Below are positions 3,149 to 18,992 of a stretch of DNA of 29,894 bases, piece after piece. The notes under the pieces were generated by a model. That model was not told the DNA's origin. It saw only the letters and a program-made list of their open reading frames with translations, and made no database searches. This DNA comes from a virus. The stretch lies in IMG/VR virus record IMGVR_UViG_3300008450_000304, positions 1 to 29,894 of that record; one strand, given 5' to 3'. Both the position numbers and the translations under genes were made by a program. How positions within the stretch are numbered: position 1 is the stretch's first letter; the number at the start of each line of letters is the position of its first letter.

Positions 3149-3367
3149 TTGGCCGACAACACCGACGTTCTGGATGCGATCGCGAGCAATCTGGCGCAGC
3201 CGCGCCGCGCTCGCACCGACGCCGGCGAGGTCGAGCAACACGAGCTGCACCGCCAGGTCGAGGCGGCCAAGTTCGTGATTGAGCAGCGAGCCAACGCAAA
3301 CGCGACGAAAAGCCCGTGGCTTTCCATGCGTTTTGCCAGGCAGGAATCTCCTGGGGCGATCGGCTAA
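3149..3367 (+). CDS. Small head-joining protein in the gpW position
   Basis: 72 residues, beginning at a TTG that directly follows the 3100-3145 hairpin; only AGGTG (3137-3141) could serve as ribosome site and it lies inside the hairpin arm. The protein has a helical N-terminus (DVLDAIASNLAQPRRAR), a central EQHELHRQVEAAKFVIEQ helix and the C-terminal pattern SMRFARQESPGAIG. Phages with lambda-type portals often carry such a 60-75 residue protein between terminase and portal, in the place of lambda gpW, which closes the filled head. The assignment rests on position, length and general pattern, not on a diagnostic motif. The stop overlaps the portal ATG (TAATG). Confidence 0.6.
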   Translation: MADNTDVLDAIASNLAQPRRARTDAGEVEQHELHRQVEAAKFVIEQRANANATKSPWLSMRFARQESPGAIG

Positions 3368-5127
3368 TGCCACGAGCGAAAGTCGAAACCAAGGCGGAGC
3401 TGAAAGCGACGGTCGCCAAGCAGGCGGCCGCGTTGCAGACGCTCGTCCGCGCTCGCTATGACGCCGCCCAAACGACCAATCTGAACCAGCGGCATTGGTC
3501 GATGGCCGACTACTACTCGGCCGATGCGTCGCTGTCGCCCGAGGTCCGCCGCAAGCTGCGGGCCCGTGCCCGCTACGAGATCGCCAACAACTCCTACGCG
3601 GCCGGCATGGCGAGCACCTGGGCCAACGACTTGATCGGCACCGGGCCGCGGCTGCAACTCGACCTGGGCCCCGACGCCGACCCGTCGGCGACGCGGCGGG
3701 TGGAGCTGGCCGTCTACGATTGGATGGTCAACGTCGACCTGGCCCGCAAGCTGCGGATCGCCAAGATTGCCAAGTTCGGCGACGGCGAAGCCTTCGCCCT
3801 GCTGACGACCAACCGCCGGCTCCGCGGGGTGCAGCTCGACGTGCGGCTCGTCGAGGCCGAGCAAATCTGTGACCCGAGCGGCTTCCCGAATGCCGGCGAG
3901 GTCGACGGCCTGCGATTCGACGAGGACGGCAACCCAACCGACTACTGGGTGAGCCGGCATCATCCCGGAAGCCTTCTCCCCGGCTGGTCGCTGGATGGCC
4001 GCTGGGTGAGCGCCGACGACCTGCTGCATTGGTATCACGCCACCCGGCCCGGCCAGCACCGCGGCGTCGGCGAGATCGTGCCGGCCCTGGAGCTGTTCGC
4101 GATGCTCCGGCGGTACACGCTCGCCGTCGTCACGGCAGCGGAGACGGCGGCCGACTTCGCGGCGATCCTCAAGACCACCATGCCGGCCGACGGTGCCGGT
4201 GCCGCCGGCATCGACGCCTGGGAAACCATGCCCATCATGCGGGGCATGATGATGAGCGCCCCCGAGGGGTGGGAGCCCTACCAGCTCAAGCCCGAGCAAC
4301 CGACGGGCACCTACGACTCGTTCGTGCGGCGGATTCTCAATGAAATCGCCCGTGCGGTGAATATGCCGTACATCGTGGCGGCCATGGACTCCAGCACGGC
4401 GAATTACTCGTCGATGCGGGGCGACTACCTCGTGTACCGCAAGCACCAGGCCACCGAGCGCGGCGACGTGGAGCGGGTGATGCTCGACCCGCTGCTCAAC
4501 AAGTGGCTGGACGAGGCCGCCCTGGTGCCCGGCATGATCCCCGACGGCCTGCCGCCGGTCGCTGCCTGGAATTGGACGTGGACGTGGGACGGCCACGAGC
4601 ACGTCGACCCGACGAAAGAGTCGGAGGCCGAGGCCATGCAGCTCCAGGCCAACACGGCCACGCTCGCCGAAATCTGTGCCAAGCGCGGCCGCGATTGGCG
4701 GGTTGTGCTGCGGCAGCGGGCGGTCGAGCAGCAAATGGCACGCGACCTTGGCCTGGCGGCGGAGCCGGCTCCTGTCGAGGCCGAGGCCGAGCACGACCTG
4801 GAGGCGGCCGACGGTTATCGCCCGCCGCAGGCGGCCCGTGCTGCCGCGCGTCGCGGGCTGGAATTGCGAAGCGAGTACGGCCGGGGCGGGACCGCCGTCG
4901 GCATCGCACGGGCTCGCGACATTGCTAACGGCCGTTCGCTGTCGCTCGACACGATCGGGCGGATGGTGTCGTTTTTCGCACGGCACGCGGCCTACAAGGC
5001 GAACCACCAGAAAGACCCGCCGAGCAACTCCTACATCTCCTGGCTCCTGTGGGGTGGCGACGCCGGCCGCGCATGGGCCGAAGGCGTGTGGAAGCGTGAG
5101 CAGGAATCCGCGGAGGCCCAAGCATGA
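3367..5127 (+). CDS. Portal protein, lambda family, with an added C-terminal domain
   Basis: 586 residues starting at the ATG overlapping the previous stop; the frame upstream (from 3316) is shadow. The segment RRKLRARARYEIANNSYAAGMASTWANDLIGTG (residues about 60-92) is characteristic of lambda-type portals (Phage_portal_2). The body continues with DGEAFALL, the GVGEIVPALELF stretch and an NYSSMRGDYLVYRKHQ segment near the C-terminal stem. The protein forms the dodecameric DNA channel at one head vertex. The last about 100 residues (from YRPPQAARAAARRGLEL to GGDAGRAWAEGVW) look like a separate small domain that I associate with phage head or protease proteins, not with portals. The end overlaps the next gene by 4 nt (ATGA). 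Confidence 0.93.
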   Translation: MPRAKVETKAELKATVAKQAAALQTLVRARYDAAQTTNLNQRHWSMADYYSADASLSPEVRRKLRARARYEIANNSYAAGMASTWANDLIGTGPRLQLDLGPDADPSATRRVELAVYDWMVNVDLARKLRIAKIAKFGDGEAFALLTTNRRLRGVQLDVRLVEAEQICDPSGFPNAGEVDGLRFDEDGNPTDYWVSRHHPGSLLPGWSLDGRWVSADDLLHWYHATRPGQHRGVGEIVPALELFAMLRRYTLAVVTAAETAADFAAILKTTMPADGAGAAGIDAWETMPIMRGMMMSAPEGWEPYQLKPEQPTGTYDSFVRRILNEIARAVNMPYIVAAMDSSTANYSSMRGDYLVYRKHQATERGDVERVMLDPLLNKWLDEAALVPGMIPDGLPPVAAWNWTWTWDGHEHVDPTKESEAEAMQLQANTATLAEICAKRGRDWRVVLRQRAVEQQMARDLGLAAEPAPVEAEAEHDLEAADGYRPPQAARAAARRGLELRSEYGRGGTAVGIARARDIANGRSLSLDTIGRMVSFFARHAAYKANHQKDPPSNSYISWLLWGGDAGRAWAEGVWKREQESAEAQA

Positions 5128-7419: not shown

Positions 7420-7794
7420 ATGCAGGACATGATCGCCAAGGGTGCGGCCTGGTTCGACCAGCAACGGAAGGAACACCTTTCCGTGATGGTCGACTACCAA
7501 CCGACCGGGGCGATGTTCGCCAAGAGCGTCCACGCGACGATCGGTATGACGCGATGGGATTCGATGGATTCTGCCGGACAGATGATTCGGTTTGAGACGC
7601 GCGACTACTTCGTGAGTGTCGACGAGATGCGAGACAACCCGAAACGCGGCGACCGCATCCACGAGACCGACGCCGCCGGCACGCGGCGGACCTACGAGGT
7701 GATGGTGCCGGGCGGGGCAAACAACCCGTGGAGCTGGGCCGACCGCGGCCAGCGGATTCGCCGGATTCACACGCAGCTAGTGGAGAGTGACTGA
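7420..7794 (+). CDS. Head completion / head-tail joining protein
   Basis: 124 residues with a conserved layout seen in phages with gpT-like capsids: a start helix ([20 protein letters not shown]), then beta-rich [38 protein letters not shown], and the C-terminal [17 protein letters not shown]...RIHTQLV. Such proteins sit just after the capsid and decoration genes and are thought to close the head or join it to the tail (a neck role like lambda FII). No enzyme motif is present. Start ATG 7420; a second in-frame ATG lies at 7429 and the ribosome site is weak for both. The stop overlaps the next ATG (TGATG). Confidence 0.7.
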
Positions 7795-8690
7795 TGCCGT
7801 TTTTCTCCATCAGCTCGCCGTCGAGCGGCAACGCGACGCAGCTCCAGGGCCAGCCGATCGCGGCGACCGCGCCGGCCACCGGAACGGTCCTCACCTACTC
7901 GGGCTCCGCCTGGGTGGCCTCGACCGGCGTCACCGGGCCGACCGGGCCTCACGGTGCCGACGGGCCGAAAATCTACAACGGCAGCGGCGCACCGTCATCC
8001 GCCCTCGGCGTGAGCGGCGACTTCTACCTCGACACCGGCAACTCCTACCTCTACGGCCCAAAGGCATCCGGCTCGTGGGGCGGCGGTATTTCGATCCAGG
8101 GCGGCCCGACGGGCCCGGCGGGCATGACCGGCCCGACGGGCAGCACCGGCCCGCAGTCCACCGTCACGGGGCCGACTGGTAGCACAGGCCCGACGGGATC
8201 AACCGGACCGCAGTCAACTATCACCGGGCCGACGGGGATCACTGGACCGACAGGCTCCACGGGGCCGCAGTCAACCGTTACCGGGCCGACCGGCCCGCAG
8301 TCGACCGTCACGGGCCCGACGGGCGTCACGGGGGCGACGGGCCCAAGCGGCGGCCCGACAGGCCCGACCGGATCGACCGGTCCAACGGGACCAGCGGCCA
8401 GGTCCGGTGCGAATGTCGAAACGCTCTCCGGCACAAAGACGCTGACCAGCACGAGCGACCGCTATCAGTTTCTCAACCCTAACGGAGTGGCCCGCGACGT
8501 AGTCCTGCCGACAGGCGTGTCCGCAGGATTCGACTTCGTGATCGCGGAAACGGAGAAAGTCGGCTGGGAACTGAACGTCAAAACCAACACGAGCACAGGC
8601 GTCGTGACGCTCGGTATTTACGAAGTAGCCAGACAGGCCCTCGTGGTCTACGACGGCACTAACTGGCGATCATTCACGCTCGCGGAATAA
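7794..8690 (+). CDS. Collagen-like virion fibre protein, copy 1
   Basis: 298 residues. The N-terminal 19 residues [19 protein letters not shown] are identical to those of the next gene and probably dock the fibre to the virion. A GDFYLDT...[10 protein letters not shown] module follows (residues about 63-97), then a collagen-like Gly-X-Y region (about 104-200) built from GPTG, GSTG and QSTVTGPTG units, and a globular C-terminal tip (about 205-298, ending [12 protein letters not shown]). The Gly-X-Y region should form a trimeric triple helix. Many threonines occupy the Y position. Likely role: head or tail fibre binding the host surface. GAGAGTG precedes the start. Confidence 0.82.
8104..8400 (+). 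repeat. Collagen-like [13 protein letters not shown] coding repeats (fibre 1)
   Basis: Short tandem repeats of GGCCCGACGGGC-like units encode Gly-Pro-Thr and Gly-Ser-Thr triplets, interrupted by recurring CAGTC(A/G/C)AC(C/T) units that code QST. Codons vary between units, so the array is maintained at protein level and is not a recent expansion. Confidence 0.85.
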
Positions 8691-8695
8691 ATCAA

Positions 8696-9565
8696 ATGCC
8701 GTTCTTCTCGATCTCCAGCCCGTCGTCCGGCAACGCCACGCAGCTCCAGGGCCGCAACGTGTCGGCCACCGCACCGGCCACCGGGGCCGGGTTGTTCTGG
8801 AACGGCACGGCATGGGCACCGGGCAACGGGACGACCGGCCCGACCGGAGCACCAGGCCAGGACGGGGCCAAGTTCTATTCGGGATCGAGCGGGCCGACCG
8901 GCACCTTTGGGGCCAGCGGCGACTTCTGGCTCGACGTGAACGGCGGCGTGCTCTACGGGCCAAAGGCGAGCGGCTCGTGGGGAGCCGGCATCCAGCTGCA
9001 GGGCGGGCCGCAGGGGCCGACGGGAGCACAGTCGACAGTACCAGGCCCGACCGGGCCGACGGGGATTTCGAACGTCACCGGTCCGAGCGGCGTGACGGGT
9101 GCGACCGGGCCGACCGGCGCGACGGGCGTGACGGGGAGCCGTGGGGCGACGCTCCTGGCCGGCGAAGGGGCACCGCTGTCGGCCTATGGCGAAAACGGCG
9201 ATTGGTACATCGACACGGCGGCCGCGGACTTCTACGGGCCAAAGTCTGGCGGCACCTGGGGCACGCCGACGATCGACCTGCTGGCGATCACGGGGCCGAC
9301 GGGGGCCGCGTCGAGCGTGACCGGGCCGACTGGGCCTGTGTCGAGCGTCGCTGGGCCCACGGGAACCACTGGCCCTGCCAGCACTGTTACCGGTCCAACC
9401 GGATCCACTGGATCAAACGGACCAACTGGGGCAACTGGACCACAGTCTACGGTCACTGGGCCAACTGGCGCTACTGGCTCTACGGGAGCGACTGGAGCGA
9501 CCGGCGTGCTGCCCACGAACGCTAACTCGGCACTGAATCTGTACCTCTGGAGCACGTTTCGCTAA
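8696..9565 (+). CDS. Collagen-like virion fibre protein, copy 2
   Basis: 289 residues, a paralogue of the preceding gene with the same first 19 residues and a similar stretch to about residue 100. It carries two GD(F/W)(Y/W)xD...YGPK..G.WG modules (about 63-97 and 156-189), separated by a first Gly-X-Y block (about 104-150) and followed by a second (about 199-270). The C-terminus is short (VLPTNANSALNLYLWSTFR), unlike the larger tip of copy 1. It may form a second fibre type, or assemble together with copy 1. The stop overlaps the next start (TAATG). Confidence 0.82.
   Translation: MPFFSISSPSSGNATQLQGRNVSATAPATGAGLFWNGTAWAPGNGTTGPTGAPGQDGAKFYSGSSGPTGTFGASGDFWLDVNGGVLYGPKASGSWGAGIQLQGGPQGPTGAQSTVPGPTGPTGISNVTGPSGVTGATGPTGATGVTGSRGATLLAGEGAPLSAYGENGDWYIDTAAADFYGPKSGGTWGTPTIDLLAITGPTGAASSVTGPTGPVSSVAGPTGTTGPASTVTGPTGSTGSNGPTGATGPQSTVTGPTGATGSTGATGATGVLPTNANSALNLYLWSTFR
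9004..9513 (+). repeat. Collagen-like coding repeats (fibre 2, two blocks)
   Basis: Two Gly-X-Y coding blocks, about 9004-9145 and 9289-9513, flank a globular module. Units are GPTG, GATG, GSTG and SSVTGPTG. The second block becomes visibly less GC-rich towards its 3' end (ACTGGATCAACTGG-type units), the first sign of the composition change that continues into the next two genes. Confidence 0.8.
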
Positions 9566-12248: not shown

Positions 12249-12802
12249 CGACCATGACGCTCCGCACCTACGACCAGGCCAAGGCCCTGCTGGAGGCAAA
12301 CTGGCGGGAGCACGACTGGTTCTACTGCGACACGCGCGTGATCGGGCATTACGCGATGAAGGCGGCGATTTGCCAGCGGTACAACCCGCGCCGCGTCATA
12401 GAGATCGGCACCCGCTGCGGCTACTCGCTGCTCGTGTTCAACGCGGTCGCCCCGCGGGCCAGCTTCTTGTGCATCGACGGGTGCATGGATGCCGACTCCC
12501 TTGATTGCCTGGCTCATGCCAAACACTTGATCCAGCGGCACCAAATCGAGGCCGACCTGGTGGTGGTCGACTCGCACGCGATCAAGAGCCTGCCGCGGGC
12601 GTGCTTTGCTCATGTCGACGGCGACCATAGCTTCGCCGGGGCCCTGGCCGACCTACGGCTCGTGGCCCACTGCCGGGCGATCCTCGCTGACGATTGCTGC
12701 AATCCAGAAGTGGCGCGGGCGGTCGACGTGTTCAGCCGCGAGGCCAACCGCCAGGTCGAATACATCAACGACGGCCTCCGCCGCGTGGCGGTGCTGACAT
12801 GA
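12245..12802 (+). CDS. Class I SAM-dependent methyltransferase
   Basis: 185 residues from a GTG overlapping the previous stop (GTGA); an ATG at 12254 is an alternative. RVIEIGTRCGYSLLVFNAVAP is the SAM-binding glycine loop, FLCIDGCMD the acidic second strand, and FAHVDGDHSFAGALADLRLV the motif typical of the Methyltransf_24 group, many members of which act on sugars or small molecules beside glycosyltransferases. The C-terminus ends VEYINDGLRRVAVLT. In this operon it probably methylates a glycan made or transferred by the neighbouring enzymes. It overlaps the glycosyltransferase start by ATGA. Confidence 0.75.
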   Translation: MTTMTLRTYDQAKALLEANWREHDWFYCDTRVIGHYAMKAAICQRYNPRRVIEIGTRCGYSLLVFNAVAPRASFLCIDGCMDADSLDCLAHAKHLIQRHQIEADLVVVDSHAIKSLPRACFAHVDGDHSFAGALADLRLVAHCRAILADDCCNPEVARAVDVFSREANRQVEYINDGLRRVAVLT

Positions 12803-13854
12803 AAATCGGCATCTACGCTCTCGCCAAGAATGAGGCCGCCAACGTCGCCGCCTGGGAGGCGTCCTGCCGCGACGCCGACGTGCGGGTCGTCACCGATACC
12901 GGCTCGACCGACGATACCGTCGAGCTGCTCCAGGCGGCCGGCGTGACCGTGGCTCGCGGGTCGCCGGTGCCGTGGCGGTGGGACGATGCCCACAACCTTT
13001 CGCTCTACCATCTGCCGGCCGACCTGGACGTGGCGATCCGGCTCGACATGGATGAAGTGCTCGATCCCGGCTGGCGGGCGGCCCTGGAGGCCGCTTGGAC
13101 GCCGGCCACGACGAAAGGCCGGTATTTCTACCAGTGGAGCGACGCCGTCCGGTTCCTCTCGGACCGCGTCCACCGGCGGGCCGGCTATCGCTGGGTGGGG
13201 GCGACGCACGAGGGCCTGTCGTGCTGGTCCGGCGACGAGGTCCAGACGCAGCTCGACGGGTTCACGATCCGGCACTTTCGCCAGCCCGGCAAGGCCCACA
13301 AGAGCGACCTGACGCTGCTCCGCCAGGCGGTCCGCGAGAATCCCCTGGACGTGCGGATGCACTGGTATCTCGCCCGCGAGCTGGACTATGCCAGCGACCC
13401 CGAGGCCATCGAGGCTTTCGACCGCTACCTGCGGCTCCCCGGCGGGGCGGCCACCGAGCGGGCGTATGCCTATCGCGTCCTCGCCAGGCTCCAGCCCGAG
13501 CAGCTCAAGCCCCGGCTCCTGGAGGCGATCATGGCCGCCCCCCGCGAGCCCGAGGCGTATCTGGCACTCGCGGAGATGGCGGAGCAGATGGGCGATTGGG
13601 TGTCGTGCCTTTACTACGCCCGCCATGCGTCGTTCTGTCCTGCGGATAGCCAGACGCACGCCAGCGACCCGCGGGCCTACGGGCCGCGAGCCCCTGACCT
13701 GGCGTGCATCGCGGCATCGAAACTCGACCTTTACCGCGAGGCCCTCCAGCACGCCCGCGAGGCTTTCCGCCGGGATCATGCCGACCGCCGGCTCGCCGGG
13801 AATCTCGCCCTCCTTGAACAGCTGACCCAGGAGAAAGGCCCCAAGGCCGCCTAG
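12799..13854 (+). CDS. Glycosyltransferase family 2 with a C-terminal TPR-like region
   Basis: 351 residues from the ATG overlapping the previous stop; the longer frame from 12694 is shadow. The N-terminal GT-A domain has AKNEAANV (9-16), DTGSTDDT (33-40) for nucleotide-sugar binding, and RLDMDEVLD (81-89) with the metal-binding acidic motif. The segment FTIRHFRQPGKAHKSD probably carries the catalytic-base region. From about residue 165 the protein is helical repeats (MHWYLARELDYASDPEAIEAFDRYLRLPG, YLALAEMAEQMGDWVSCLYYARHA) like TPRs, which often present protein substrates. Together with the neighbouring fibre genes this suggests glycosylation of a phage or host surface protein. Confidence 0.85.
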   Translation: MKIGIYALAKNEAANVAAWEASCRDADVRVVTDTGSTDDTVELLQAAGVTVARGSPVPWRWDDAHNLSLYHLPADLDVAIRLDMDEVLDPGWRAALEAAWTPATTKGRYFYQWSDAVRFLSDRVHRRAGYRWVGATHEGLSCWSGDEVQTQLDGFTIRHFRQPGKAHKSDLTLLRQAVRENPLDVRMHWYLARELDYASDPEAIEAFDRYLRLPGGAATERAYAYRVLARLQPEQLKPRLLEAIMAAPREPEAYLALAEMAEQMGDWVSCLYYARHASFCPADSQTHASDPRAYGPRAPDLACIAASKLDLYREALQHAREAFRRDHADRRLAGNLALLEQLTQEKGPKAA

Positions 13855-15556: not shown

Positions 15557-15928
15557 GTGCCGAACGAAAAGTATCGCCTTGGGCGTGAGTGCGTATTCAC
15601 GCTCGACGGGCAGATTCTTTCGGGCGTGCGTGAAGTGAACGTGTCGCGTCGCACCACAGAGGTCGACGCGACGGGGTACGGGCACGCCGCGCAGTCGACG
15701 GCCGTCATTCATCGCACCTACGAAATCAACGTCGCGGTGCTCAAGCCATCCGATGCGGCAAAACTGCGTGCAGCCGAGGTTGACGGTAGGGCGGTGACTA
15801 TTACAACGACGAACGGCCTCCGTGAAGTGAGCGCCGACTTCGTCGTTTCGGACTCCACGGACGACGAGCCGCTTGACGACGCGGTGATTGCCACGTTCAC
15901 ACTCAAACAGTGGATGCACGGCAAATGA
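15557..15928 (+). CDS. Tail tube-like protein 2
   Basis: 123 residues from a GTG at 15557 preceded by GTGAGGTGAGG. Layout matches the previous protein: KYRLGRECVFTL, VREVNVSRRTTEVDATGYG, TYEINVAVLKP, and LDDAVIATFTLKQW. Conserved pattern KYxLGxxxxFT...VxxVxVxRxTxExDxTxxG. One copy is probably the main tube subunit and the other may form the first or last ring or an initiator. The stop overlaps the following chaperone gene by ATGA, and chaperones usually follow the tube gene, which favours this one as the main tube or the pair as co-subunits. Confidence 0.65.
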   Translation: MPNEKYRLGRECVFTLDGQILSGVREVNVSRRTTEVDATGYGHAAQSTAVIHRTYEINVAVLKPSDAAKLRAAEVDGRAVTITTTNGLREVSADFVVSDSTDDEPLDDAVIATFTLKQWMHGK

Positions 15929-16482
15929 AAACCTTCACCGACACCGAAGGGCGGCACTGGAATCTCAAGGGAAGCCTAGGGGCATTTGAGAGAGTCAAAA
16001 CGTCGTGCGACGTGGACCTGCTCGACCTGCCGACGACGCAGGAGTGCCTCAAGAAAATCTCCGACGTGTTCACGCTCGGCAAGGTGCTCTACGTCATGTG
16101 CGAGGACCAGGCGGAGGCCCGCGGCGTGACGCCCGAGCAATTCGCCGACGGGTTCAATGCCGACGTGCTGCACGAGGCAAGTGAATCGCTGATCGAGGAA
16201 GTGATTTTTTTTTGCCGGAAAGACCTGCGGCCGGCGCTAGAGATGGCCTTCGCGAAGGCGAAGGCGGCGGATCGGAAGGCCGCGGAGACAATGCGGACGC
16301 GGATTCACTCGCTAGAGAGGGAGATGGACGCGGCAATGGAAAGCCTACTGACATCTACCGACTCTGCTACGAGCTTGCCGGCATCGTCGGAGTCCACCCC
16401 GGCCAATGGACGCTCCGCGGCCTCGTCTGGGCGGCCGAGGGCGCCCAAAAAGAGCGGTGGAACCATACGAGCAGCGTCGTAG
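15925..16482 (+). CDS. Tail assembly chaperone, short form (G-like)
   Basis: 185 residues from the ATG that overlaps the tube stop. Begins MKTFTDTEGRHWNLKGSLGAFERVKTSCDVDLLDLPTTQECLKKI, largely helical, typical of chaperones that coat the tape measure protein before tube assembly. It contains a run of nine T (16205-16213; Ile94-Phe95-Phe96) and overlaps a second, -1 frame. Good zero-frame codon usage (G/C third bases) continues to about 16345; after that the tail is a low-complexity Ser/Pro/Arg stretch (SLPASSESTPANGRSAASSG), while the -1 frame becomes protein-like. Lambda G and GT are the model. Confidence 0.75.
   Translation: MKTFTDTEGRHWNLKGSLGAFERVKTSCDVDLLDLPTTQECLKKISDVFTLGKVLYVMCEDQAEARGVTPEQFADGFNADVLHEASESLIEEVIFFCRKDLRPALEMAFAKAKAADRKAAETMRTRIHSLEREMDAAMESLLTSTDSATSLPASSESTPANGRSAASSGRPRAPKKSGGTIRAAS
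16206..16212 (+). other. Slippery T TTT TTT heptamer for -1 frameshifting
   Basis: Inside a run of nine T (16205-16213), read ATT TTT TTT TGC in the zero frame. A one-base backward slip leads to TTG CCG at 16212, the frame that stays open to 16625. A ribosomal slip or transcriptional insertion of one U would both give the same product. Confidence 0.55.
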
Positions 16483-16625
16483 CCCAACAGTATTCGATTC
16501 ACCGCGACCCCAAGAAACGCCAGAAGCCGTACCAACCGCACGAGTTCAATCCGTTCTACGAGCCTCCCAAGGTCAAGCCGCGGATCATCACGCCCGAGCT
16601 ATTCGACGAGATATTCAAGGACTGA
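16212..16625 (+). CDS. -1 frame extension of the tail chaperone (GT-like)
   Basis: Open -1 frame of 137 codons. Its first part is Arg/Gly-rich (out-of-frame reading of the chaperone), but from about 16345 it is a real-looking domain: TDIYRLCYELAGIVGVHPGQWTLRGLVWAAEGAQKERW and then IHRDPKKRQKPYQPHEFNPF, ending PELFDEIFKD. The Trp, then Trp-Ala-Ala pattern resembles T-type extensions of tail chaperones. No ATG or GTG start occurs in this frame near the domain, so a shift from the upstream frame (233-residue product) is more likely than independent initiation; the TTG at 16212 is the only start-like codon. The extension would recruit tube subunits to the tape measure. Confidence 0.6.
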   Translation: MPERPAAGARDGLREGEGGGSEGRGDNADADSLAREGDGRGNGKPTDIYRLCYELAGIVGVHPGQWTLRGLVWAAEGAQKERWNHTSSVVAQQYSIHRDPKKRQKPYQPHEFNPFYEPPKVKPRIITPELFDEIFKD

Positions 16626-16628
16626 CGT

Positions 16629-18992
16629 ATGTCATCGGCTGGAGGCGTGCGAGCCGGAAAAACCTTCGTTGAGATTTTCGCGAAGGACACAGAGTTTCAG
16701 CGCGGCATGAACCGCGTGCAGACGCGGCTCAATAACATCGGCTCTGCCATGCAGAGCTTCGGCACAAAGATGATGCTGGCCGGCACGGCCGTTGGCCTGC
16801 CGCTTTTGCTGGCCGCCAGGCAAGCGGCAGGGTTTGAGGATGCTTTGCTCGGCATGAGCGCCGCGGCCGGCCTCGCTGGCGACCAGGTCGCGCAGATGGA
16901 AGCCGAGGCCATGCGGCTCTCAAAAACCATGGGCGTGAGCCCCTCCAAGATCGCCAACGCGATGCTGGAGCTGGCGAAGGCCGGCATGGATGTGGAGGAC
17001 GTGCTGGGCGGGGCGGCCGAGGCGGCCGTGCAGTTCGCTCGCGTGTCGGGCGTGGAGATGGCCGATGCGGCGGTATTCATGAAAACCGCCATGAACAGCT
17101 TTGGCGTATCGGCAACCGAGGCCGTCGATACGCTGTCGGCCGCGGCGGACGCATCCGAAACTTCGATCCTGGCAATGGTCGAATCGTTCGCCCTCGTCGG
17201 CTCCGCCGGGGCTCTGTTCAATCAGTCGCTATTCGACGTGTCGCAGGGGCTCGCCCTGCTTGCCAGGTTCGGCATCCGCGGCGAGGAGGCCGGCACGGGC
17301 ATCAAAACCATGCTCGTGCGGCTCACGTCGCCGAGCAAGGAGGCCCGCGACGCCCTGGAGCGTATCGGCCTCACCATGGGCGACTTCCGCGACCAGGCCG
17401 GGAAGTTGCTGCCAATCGCCCAAATCGTCGGCGTCCTCGAGCGTGCCCTAAAGGGCGTCGACAAGATGGCCCAGGACGAAATCCTTACGACCGTGTTCGG
17501 CGATCGCGGCATCCGCGTTATCGGCGGTTTCCTGCAGGTCGGCACCCATGGCTTCGACACCATGGCGGATGCCATGGAAAGCAACCTGCCAGTGGCCGCA
17601 AAGTTTGCGATCCTCATGTCTGGCCTGTCGGGAGCATTCGAGAAACTCCGCGGAGCCGCGGAGCGTATGGCGATCGCCTTTGCGAAAACGCTCGGCGACG
17701 GAGCCGCCCGAGCTGCCGCTGCTATCGCCTGGATGATGGATGCGATTTCCGCGTTGATGATTCAGTTCCCCCGCATATCGCAGGCCGTGGTCGGCGTGAC
17801 GGCGGCCTTGCTGGCAGTCGGCGCGGCGGCGATCGTCGTGGGAATCGCTTTCAAGGTGCTTGCCGCTGCCGTTGCTGTGCTGGCGTTTGCGTTCACGCCC
17901 GTCGGCTCCGCGGTAATCGCAGCCACGGCAACGCTCGCGGTGTTTGCTCAAAAGATGTACGCGCTATCGCCGGCGTTCCGCGGCGAAGTTGACGCGATCC
18001 TGGCTGCGGCGCAGCGGCTTGATTTCTCCAGCGCGTGGGAAATTATGAACCTAAACCTCGCCATCGCGCTAACGCAGATGGATCAGTATTTCGGCGGGTT
18101 CTTCTTGAGCATCCAAAACGCGGCGACTGGTGCGGGGTTTGCGATCTACGACGCGATCGCTGGCCCGATAGATAGATTGCTCGTTTACGCAACAAATCTC
18201 GCAGACAGGATGGCGGGCATTTTTAGTGCCACGCAGGAAGCTTTTAGCGGCGGCGGCCTCGGGTATACGGGCCTTGCCGGCGCCATGGCCGCGGGCCTTG
18301 CCCAAACGTTCGGCAGGTCGGACGAGGATGTGCAGCGAAGCATGGAAGAAACACAGGCCGACATACAGGCAACATTTGATCGCGAGAAAAAGAGAAATGC
18401 CGACCTCGCAGAGCGCGAGCAAGCACGGAAAAACCGAGCCGGCCAGCGGCAGGCCCAGGGCGACGGCACGCTAGAGGACTTGCGGCGTAGGCTGGATGAA
18501 GCAAAAAAGGCCGCCGCACGCGAGGCGGACGGGAGCACGGCCGCCAAGCGATCCGAGAAGCGTAAAGAAGGCTTCCCGATGCCTCCAGAGCCGCCAGAGG
18601 ACCCAAAGGAGCCAAAGGCCGGCAAGGAGCCGAAGCCGCCGACGCCGTCAACGCTATCCACGTTTGCGGCGGAGATTGCAGGGCAGATTGGCGTCGGGCC
18701 GGAACTGGATTACGCCCAGCAGACCGCCAACAACACGGCCCGCGCGGCCGACGCCCTCGACAGAATCTTGAACGTCGGCGACTTCGGCAAGGGCGGAATA
18801 AAAGCGTTCGACCCAGCTGGCATCCAGCAGGCGCTTGCGTCCGCACAGCGGGACGTGTCCGCCCCGGTCGCTGGCGGCGACAAAGACCTCCTTTCGGCCA
18901 ACGAGAAAACTGCCGCCGCGTCCGAGCGGATGGCGGCCACCCTTGACCGTATGGCCCGCTCCATGGGCGGCGGCGGCCTGGCCTTCGCGTAA
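16629..18992 (+). CDS. Tail tape measure protein (TP901 type)
   Basis: 787 residues, the longest protein of the window. The N-terminal half carries the TP901 core: FEDALLGMSAAAGL, QMEAEAMRLSKTMGVSPSKIANAMLELAKAGM, FMKTAMNSFGVSATEAVDTLSAA, GTGIKTMLVRLTSPSKEARDALERIGL, and a GDRGIRVIGGF segment. Two strongly hydrophobic stretches follow (about 395-440, AVVGVTAALLAVGAAAIVVGIAFKVL and AVAVLAFAFTPVG), then coiled and charged segments with EAKKAAAREADG and a Pro-rich part (PMPPEPPEDPKEP). It sets tail length, about 118 nm at 1.5 A per residue, and probably passes into the host membrane during DNA entry. Confidence 0.95.
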   Translation: MSSAGGVRAGKTFVEIFAKDTEFQRGMNRVQTRLNNIGSAMQSFGTKMMLAGTAVGLPLLLAARQAAGFEDALLGMSAAAGLAGDQVAQMEAEAMRLSKTMGVSPSKIANAMLELAKAGMDVEDVLGGAAEAAVQFARVSGVEMADAAVFMKTAMNSFGVSATEAVDTLSAAADASETSILAMVESFALVGSAGALFNQSLFDVSQGLALLARFGIRGEEAGTGIKTMLVRLTSPSKEARDALERIGLTMGDFRDQAGKLLPIAQIVGVLERALKGVDKMAQDEILTTVFGDRGIRVIGGFLQVGTHGFDTMADAMESNLPVAAKFAILMSGLSGAFEKLRGAAERMAIAFAKTLGDGAARAAAAIAWMMDAISALMIQFPRISQAVVGVTAALLAVGAAAIVVGIAFKVLAAAVAVLAFAFTPVGSAVIAATATLAVFAQKMYALSPAFRGEVDAILAAAQRLDFSSAWEIMNLNLAIALTQMDQYFGGFFLSIQNAATGAGFAIYDAIAGPIDRLLVYATNLADRMAGIFSATQEAFSGGGLGYTGLAGAMAAGLAQTFGRSDEDVQRSMEETQADIQATFDREKKRNADLAEREQARKNRAGQRQAQGDGTLEDLRRRLDEAKKAAAREADGSTAAKRSEKRKEGFPMPPEPPEDPKEPKAGKEPKPPTPSTLSTFAAEIAGQIGVGPELDYAQQTANNTARAADALDRILNVGDFGKGGIKAFDPAGIQQALASAQRDVSAPVAGGDKDLLSANEKTAAASERMAATLDRMARSMGGGGLAFA

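Follow-up and report, generated by a model that had tools for sequence, protein, structure and literature searches.

A candidate tail assembly chaperone pair with a conserved putative -1 slip site in the middle of the G gene

The tail gene locus and its predicted proteins

The window, as we call the whole stretch of DNA analyzed here, is the 29,894 nt of virus DNA in IMG/VR record IMGVR_UViG_3300008450_000304 (positions 1-29,894), and it carries terminase, portal, head, tape measure, and exonuclease genes. The genes of interest lie on the plus strand in the order tail-tube-like gene, G, T, and tape measure gene. The first of these (15557-15928) has a weak match to a tail tube family (PHROG 185, E 1.8e-4), and its TGA is overlapped by the ATG at 15925 that opens the frame-0 ORF (15925-16482, 185 aa), a G-like candidate tail assembly chaperone. 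This ATG corresponds to the start codon of the relatives and, on that comparison, is probably the frame-0 start rather than the GTG given in the ORF list. The tape measure protein gene (16629-18992) matches PF10145 (E 3.5e-36) as well as PHROG tape measure families, and a PF10145 gene also comes next in seven of the eight relatives scanned. In 11 loci of the clades with a run of six T (T6 clades), the next ORF, picked by script and judged by eye, was unlike a tape measure protein. Several members of these clades (L087-L103) have small ORFs after T instead of a tape measure gene, some of which begin with an apparent membrane segment.

Other features of the window include a glycosyltransferase-like gene within the structural gene block (12694-13851; PHROG 13126, E 1.3e-65) and two adjacent collagen-like or tail fibre-like proteins between the head and tail genes (7794-9562). 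On the minus strand, a 585-codon open frame lies antisense to the portal gene (3364-5121) and is probably a by-product of GC-rich codon use.

Codons 94-97 of G read ATT TTT TTT TGC, and the resulting run of nine T (T9, 16205-16213) is the only homopolymer of at least 7 bases in the window; among 300 copies of the window simulated with an order-1 Markov model, 5 contained a run of nine A or nine T anywhere. Within the run, the tandem Phe codons 95-96 form a slippery heptamer of the X XXY YYZ type, T TTT TTT (16206-16212). The -1 frame is open from the TTG at 16212 for 137 codons, up to a stop at 16623-16625, so both features that the preliminary description had pointed out, the T9 run with its possible slip and the long open -1 frame, are present at 16205-16625. 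The frame-0 stop lies 270 nt past the slip, and that whole stretch is open in both frames. A shift here would give, beside the predicted G of 185 aa, a predicted GT of 96 + 137 = 233 aa that has 96 residues in common with it. The frame-0 stop is formed by a -1-frame Val codon, GTA, followed by GCC (16479-16484). Since GTA is rare, used for 26 of the 428 Val residues in the genes counted, this stop may itself be selected.

Two alignments (A3 and A4) contain 40 of 56 sequences, near-duplicates having been removed by hand. For G, AlphaFold2 run with 40 sequences predicted a folded domain (residues 1-96), a long C-terminal helix (residues 102-142; 16228-16350), and a disordered tail, the last lying over the T domain (16351-16479). 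The N-domain (codons 1-96; 15925-16212), which would be shared by both predicted products, had pLDDT block means of 88-97, and its final helix covers residues 79-96, codon 96 being the slip codon; in this model, the slip falls at a domain border of G. The -1 frame extension (16212-16625) begins with a linker rich in Arg, Gly, Glu, and Asp (16212-16343, from AlphaFold2 and composition), with residues 12-42 of the extension below a pLDDT of 50 and predicted as disordered, followed by a helical T domain (16344-16622) with helices at residues 48-59 and 68-96. Read in frame 0, the bases of this linker encode most of the long helix of G.

The long Arg/Gly-rich linker noted in the preliminary description is real as a matter of composition, with a Gly plus Arg fraction of 0.41, but a frame-0 protein encoded by randomly chosen synonymous codons would already give 0.36. 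Across 56 loci, the corresponding values were 0.40 observed and 0.37 expected. The Arg/Gly character is therefore mostly a by-product, being largely a GC-rich Ala/Glu/Lys helix read one base back. Hydrophobic residues in the linker were below expectation in 46 of the 56 loci. These expectations, like those for frame openness below, apply the codon usage of the window to all loci.

The window G had no Pfam match above the cut-off and no PHROG match, and the 40 G and 40 T members had no match to any PHROG named tail chaperone. The T profile matched three ordinary phage T proteins of PHROG 337 and 39 (tail or tail assembly protein) with an hhalign probability of 98.5, although these proteins had been fetched by the family motif, so that the E-value of the pairwise comparison does not carry the meaning of one from a database search. 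These ordinary relatives (L107-L109) share with the T domain described here an IHRDPKK...DF.P stretch. When the G model was compared with viral models (BFVD), the best match was a tail assembly chaperone, weak at E 0.011 (probability 1.0), and tail assembly chaperones made up seven of the top 20 matches; no match reached E 0.001 or below. No tail chaperone was among the matches listed in the structure comparison with solved chains (PDB), and neither the T structure search nor a sequence-profile search of solved structures gave anything convincing. Nothing was found in INPHARED by tblastn with the window T domain or with the T domain and G of one relative. One weak genome match (L110) was left out because it does not have this design.

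The candidate slip site and the two open frames among relatives

Together with the window, 76 relatives (L031-L106) have the T domain, for a total of 77 loci. Over the 450 nt compared, 20 of these exactly duplicate another locus, which leaves 57 distinct ones. The distinct set leaves aside L107-L109, which have the ordinary organization and matched by motif only; L030, a 28% G relative whose contig ends before T; and L029, which is cut before the run. Protein identity to the window is as low as 24% among relatives.

An in-phase X XXY YYZ heptamer was found in the same place in 56 of the 57 distinct loci. In the relatives it follows codon 93-101 of G, a spread somewhat narrowed by the rule used to choose their G starts, which favored the window length. 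The heptamer is T TTT TTT in 41 of the 56, always within exactly nine T, and T TTT TTC in 13, of which one has a run of seven T and twelve have six. The remaining two are A AAT TTT (L099) and C CCT TTC (L104). The sole locus without a heptamer, L097, has GAT TTT TGC, with five T, at the corresponding site (about 2350-2370), which reflects either a genuine difference in the signal or a mistake in assembly; its -1 frame is nonetheless open. From slip to frame-0 stop, the distance in relatives is 168-375 nt.

The -1 frame is kept open downstream of the heptamer far more than upstream. From the heptamer to the T domain, it is open in 56/56 loci (all but L097 counted), as compared to 19/56 over an equal length upstream, and the +1 frame downstream is open in 4/56. 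Because the loci are mutually related, the count was also made on 13 cluster representatives (60% identity), in which the -1 frame was open in 13/13 downstream and 6/13 upstream (Fisher P 0.005). When synonymous codons were sampled randomly for an unchanged frame-0 protein, the -1 frame remained open with a probability of 0.07-0.41 per sequence (n = 54 of the 57 loci, T-run heptamers only); the product for 11 of the 13 cluster representatives, worked out by hand, is about 3e-7.

Where coding constraint changes frame was assessed from substitutions in the window and 14 relatives, 15 sequences in all, over the 100 pairs that are less than 92% identical. As far as ORF nt 330, substitutions fell mostly at the third position of frame 0 (46-61%); the pattern was mixed over ORF nt 301-450 or so, and from ORF nt 421 (window 16345) onward substitutions fell at the third position of the -1 frame (51-70%). 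This agrees with the preliminary description, which had placed the take-over by the -1 frame at about 16345. Protein identity follows the same course, with 0.54 in frame 0 versus 0.44 in the -1 frame from the run to the T domain, and 0.75 in the -1 frame versus 0.59 in frame 0 from the T domain onward. Together, these data indicate that a slip would occur at the run while frame 0 goes on encoding its own protein for 130 nt more. Since frame 0 is the better conserved over the linker, the -1 frame there may need only to stay open and soluble. The dual-coding region of about 130 nt proposed earlier thus corresponds to the part in which frame-0 constraint is stronger, and falls short of the 270 nt over which both frames are open.

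The frame-0 tail that continues over the T domain is probably a passenger of selection on the -1 frame. Its openness is expected from the T codons alone with a probability of 0.16-1.0 per sequence, and the tail is shorter in the T6 clades; for these reasons, we make no claim of function for it.

Proposed frameshifting and its alternatives

The best-supported reading of the locus, drawn from sequence comparison, is a G/GT-type tail assembly chaperone pair. The frameshifted tail chaperone suggested in the preliminary description fits the gene order, the heptamer in 56 of 57 loci, and the open -1 frame past it. What the comparison shows is the anatomy, the conservation of the site, and the openness of both frames; the shift itself, the ribosome rather than RNA polymerase as its machinery, its rate, and the roles of the two proteins are inferred. 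That a shift at the run makes the fusion is very likely in our judgment; the fuller statement, in which a tail chaperone pair arises as G and GT by ribosomal -1 slippage on T TTT TTT, is probable.

Under this reading, most ribosomes would stay in frame 0 and make G, with its folded N-domain, long helix, and disordered tail. A minority would move back one base at the two adjacent Phe codons in T TTT TTT (16206-16212) and make GT, with the same 96-residue N-domain, then the disordered linker and the T domain. Because the slip lies at the N-domain boundary, the two products would have the N-domain in common and nothing beyond it, and about 130 nt would be read as a helix in G and as a linker in GT. 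According to the accessible part of PMC5009743, the tape measure protein of lambda is bound by many copies of G but only one of GT, and the partner of T is the tail tube protein. By analogy, the N-domain may bind the tape measure protein here, and T may recruit the tail tube protein.

The heptamer, not the nine-T run, is what the family has in common, which favors ribosomal -1 slippage. The heptamer changes in its letters but still obeys X XXY YYZ, the pattern that slippage of tandem tRNAs requires. Ribosomal slippage would account for all 56 loci in one way and is preferred over slippage of RNA polymerase. Counting against a ribosomal slip on T9, the part of PMC5009743 available to us states that U UUU UUU promoted shifting far less than A AAA AAG did in E. 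coli.

No conserved downstream RNA stimulator was found in the 57 nt past the heptamer in 54 loci (mean z -0.47, versus -0.10 upstream), and the 16180-16320 segment of the window folded no better than most shuffles (z -0.92). Strong hairpins after the slip were seen in L105 (z -6.84) and L088 (z -3.61) alone, that of L105 lying directly 3' of its T TTT TTC within the 57 nt folded. A GAGGA at 16195-16199, 6 nt before the heptamer, was considered as a Shine-Dalgarno-like stimulator and discounted, as relatives vary there (by eye); the same bases also encode Glu-Glu.

Programmed transcriptional slippage, in which some transcripts would gain an extra U as RNA polymerase slips at T9 and ribosomes would then translate the -1 frame with no slip of their own, was among the options raised in the preliminary description, and as the explanation for the family we consider it unlikely. 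The run of exactly nine T in 41 of 56 loci speaks for it, as does the lack of a conserved RNA stimulator, and runs of more than eight T are named for transcriptional slippage in the accessible part of PMC3711429. However, 15 of the 56 loci have the same design without a nine-T run (twelve with T6, one with T7, and those with A AAT TTT and C CCT TTC), and in L062, near the group of the window, the run is broken, yet the heptamer T TTT TTC is kept. In addition, the flanking Ts of the nine are explained by the amino acids encoded (I, V, or L before and C or S after). Of the options put forward earlier, the ribosome is thus backed by the heptamer in 56 of 57 loci, whereas polymerase slippage on T9 leaves these 15 loci aside. 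Both ribosome and polymerase slippage could operate in the T9 clades. Since the junction protein is I-F-F-L-P either way, peptides cannot separate the two.

A further reading, which we likewise consider unlikely, is that lineages differ in machinery, with the ribosome slipping on T TTT TTC and RNA polymerase (or both) on T9. The family would then have in common a switch of C-terminus at a domain border, with the same 130 nt or so serving as an oligomerizing helix in one product and as a flexible tether in the other.

A frameshift at a later, unrecognized signal near 16345, another of the options first raised, seems very improbable. It would explain why frame-0 selection lasts to about ORF nt 420, but such lasting constraint is equally expected if G needs its helix, and this reading gives no reason for a -1 frame that is open from the run onward in 56/56 loci. 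Nor is there a shared heptamer near 16345. Barring overlapping or directly following ones, 53 of the 57 loci have no other in-phase XXXYYYZ heptamer in the shared-open stretch, and the additional heptamers of L073, L075, and L076 (near relatives) and of L100 lie at differing places.

Still less probable is a separate T gene with its own start, coupled to G translation. In its favor, the -1 frame has a TTG at 16212 with a GAGGA 5' of it, and in four relatives (L071, L072, L081, and L084) the T domain opens with a GTG. However, the -1 frame of the window contains no ATG or GTG between slip and T domain, and the TTG is missing in L056, L062, L085, L088, and the T6 loci, so that the independent T start named beforehand as evidence against a frameshift did not emerge. 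Openness, moreover, begins around the run in 56/56 loci, many of which have no start codon there. Finally, homopolymers are error-prone in general, but a sequencing or assembly error or a decayed gene has a negligible chance of being the explanation, as the relatives, on dozens of contigs that were assembled separately, have this site and the two open frames as well.

Comparison with known systems and implications

The proposed G/GT pair resembles that of lambda in having two ORFs before the tape measure gene, the second in the -1 frame, together with an X XXY YYZ slip site and a T domain supplied by the shift only. The slip site of lambda is GGGAAAG, whereas that of the window is T TTT TTT. 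In lambda, the shift occurs near the 3' end of G (PMC5009743, in the part accessible), so that lambda GT is nearly all of G plus T. The shift proposed here, in contrast, would come after 96 of the 185 codons, leaving 270 nt to the frame-0 stop, and the predicted GT would be without the long helix of G and would not contain nearly all of G. A -1 frameshift is likewise a feature of HK97-type and SEA-PHAGES tail assembly chaperones. In the SEA-PHAGES set, slip to frame-0 stop averages 26 nt, according to the available portion of PMC10885494, and the ordinary T relatives L107-L109 have no more than 55-70 nt open in both frames, unlike the 168-375 nt found here.

Because the slip lies 270 nt before the frame-0 stop, C-termini would be swapped, and GT would not be G plus a tail. 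Recoding of dnaX, which yields tau and gamma, offers another point of comparison, as its slip site is also homopolymeric. The dnaX shift shortens the protein, whereas the shift proposed for the window swaps one C-terminus for another. Relatives there may reach the same end by either ribosomal or transcriptional slippage, as the title of Larsen 2000 indicates.

Although frameshifting in tail chaperones is textbook knowledge, the described examples, as far as the accessible parts of the sources go, shift close to the end of G, and we found no account of a mid-gene shift of this kind in those parts of the literature on tail chaperone frameshifting that were searched. The present family, which lacks a Pfam or named PHROG match, would shift halfway along G at the border of a domain, and a single piece of DNA would encode a helix for one product and a linker for the other. 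Predictors that expect a slip near the stop may miss such genes. The family also offers a natural series of slip sites in one gene, namely T9, T7, T6, A AAT TTT, and C CCT TTC. The question of why G and GT would need to share only the N-domain also becomes testable.
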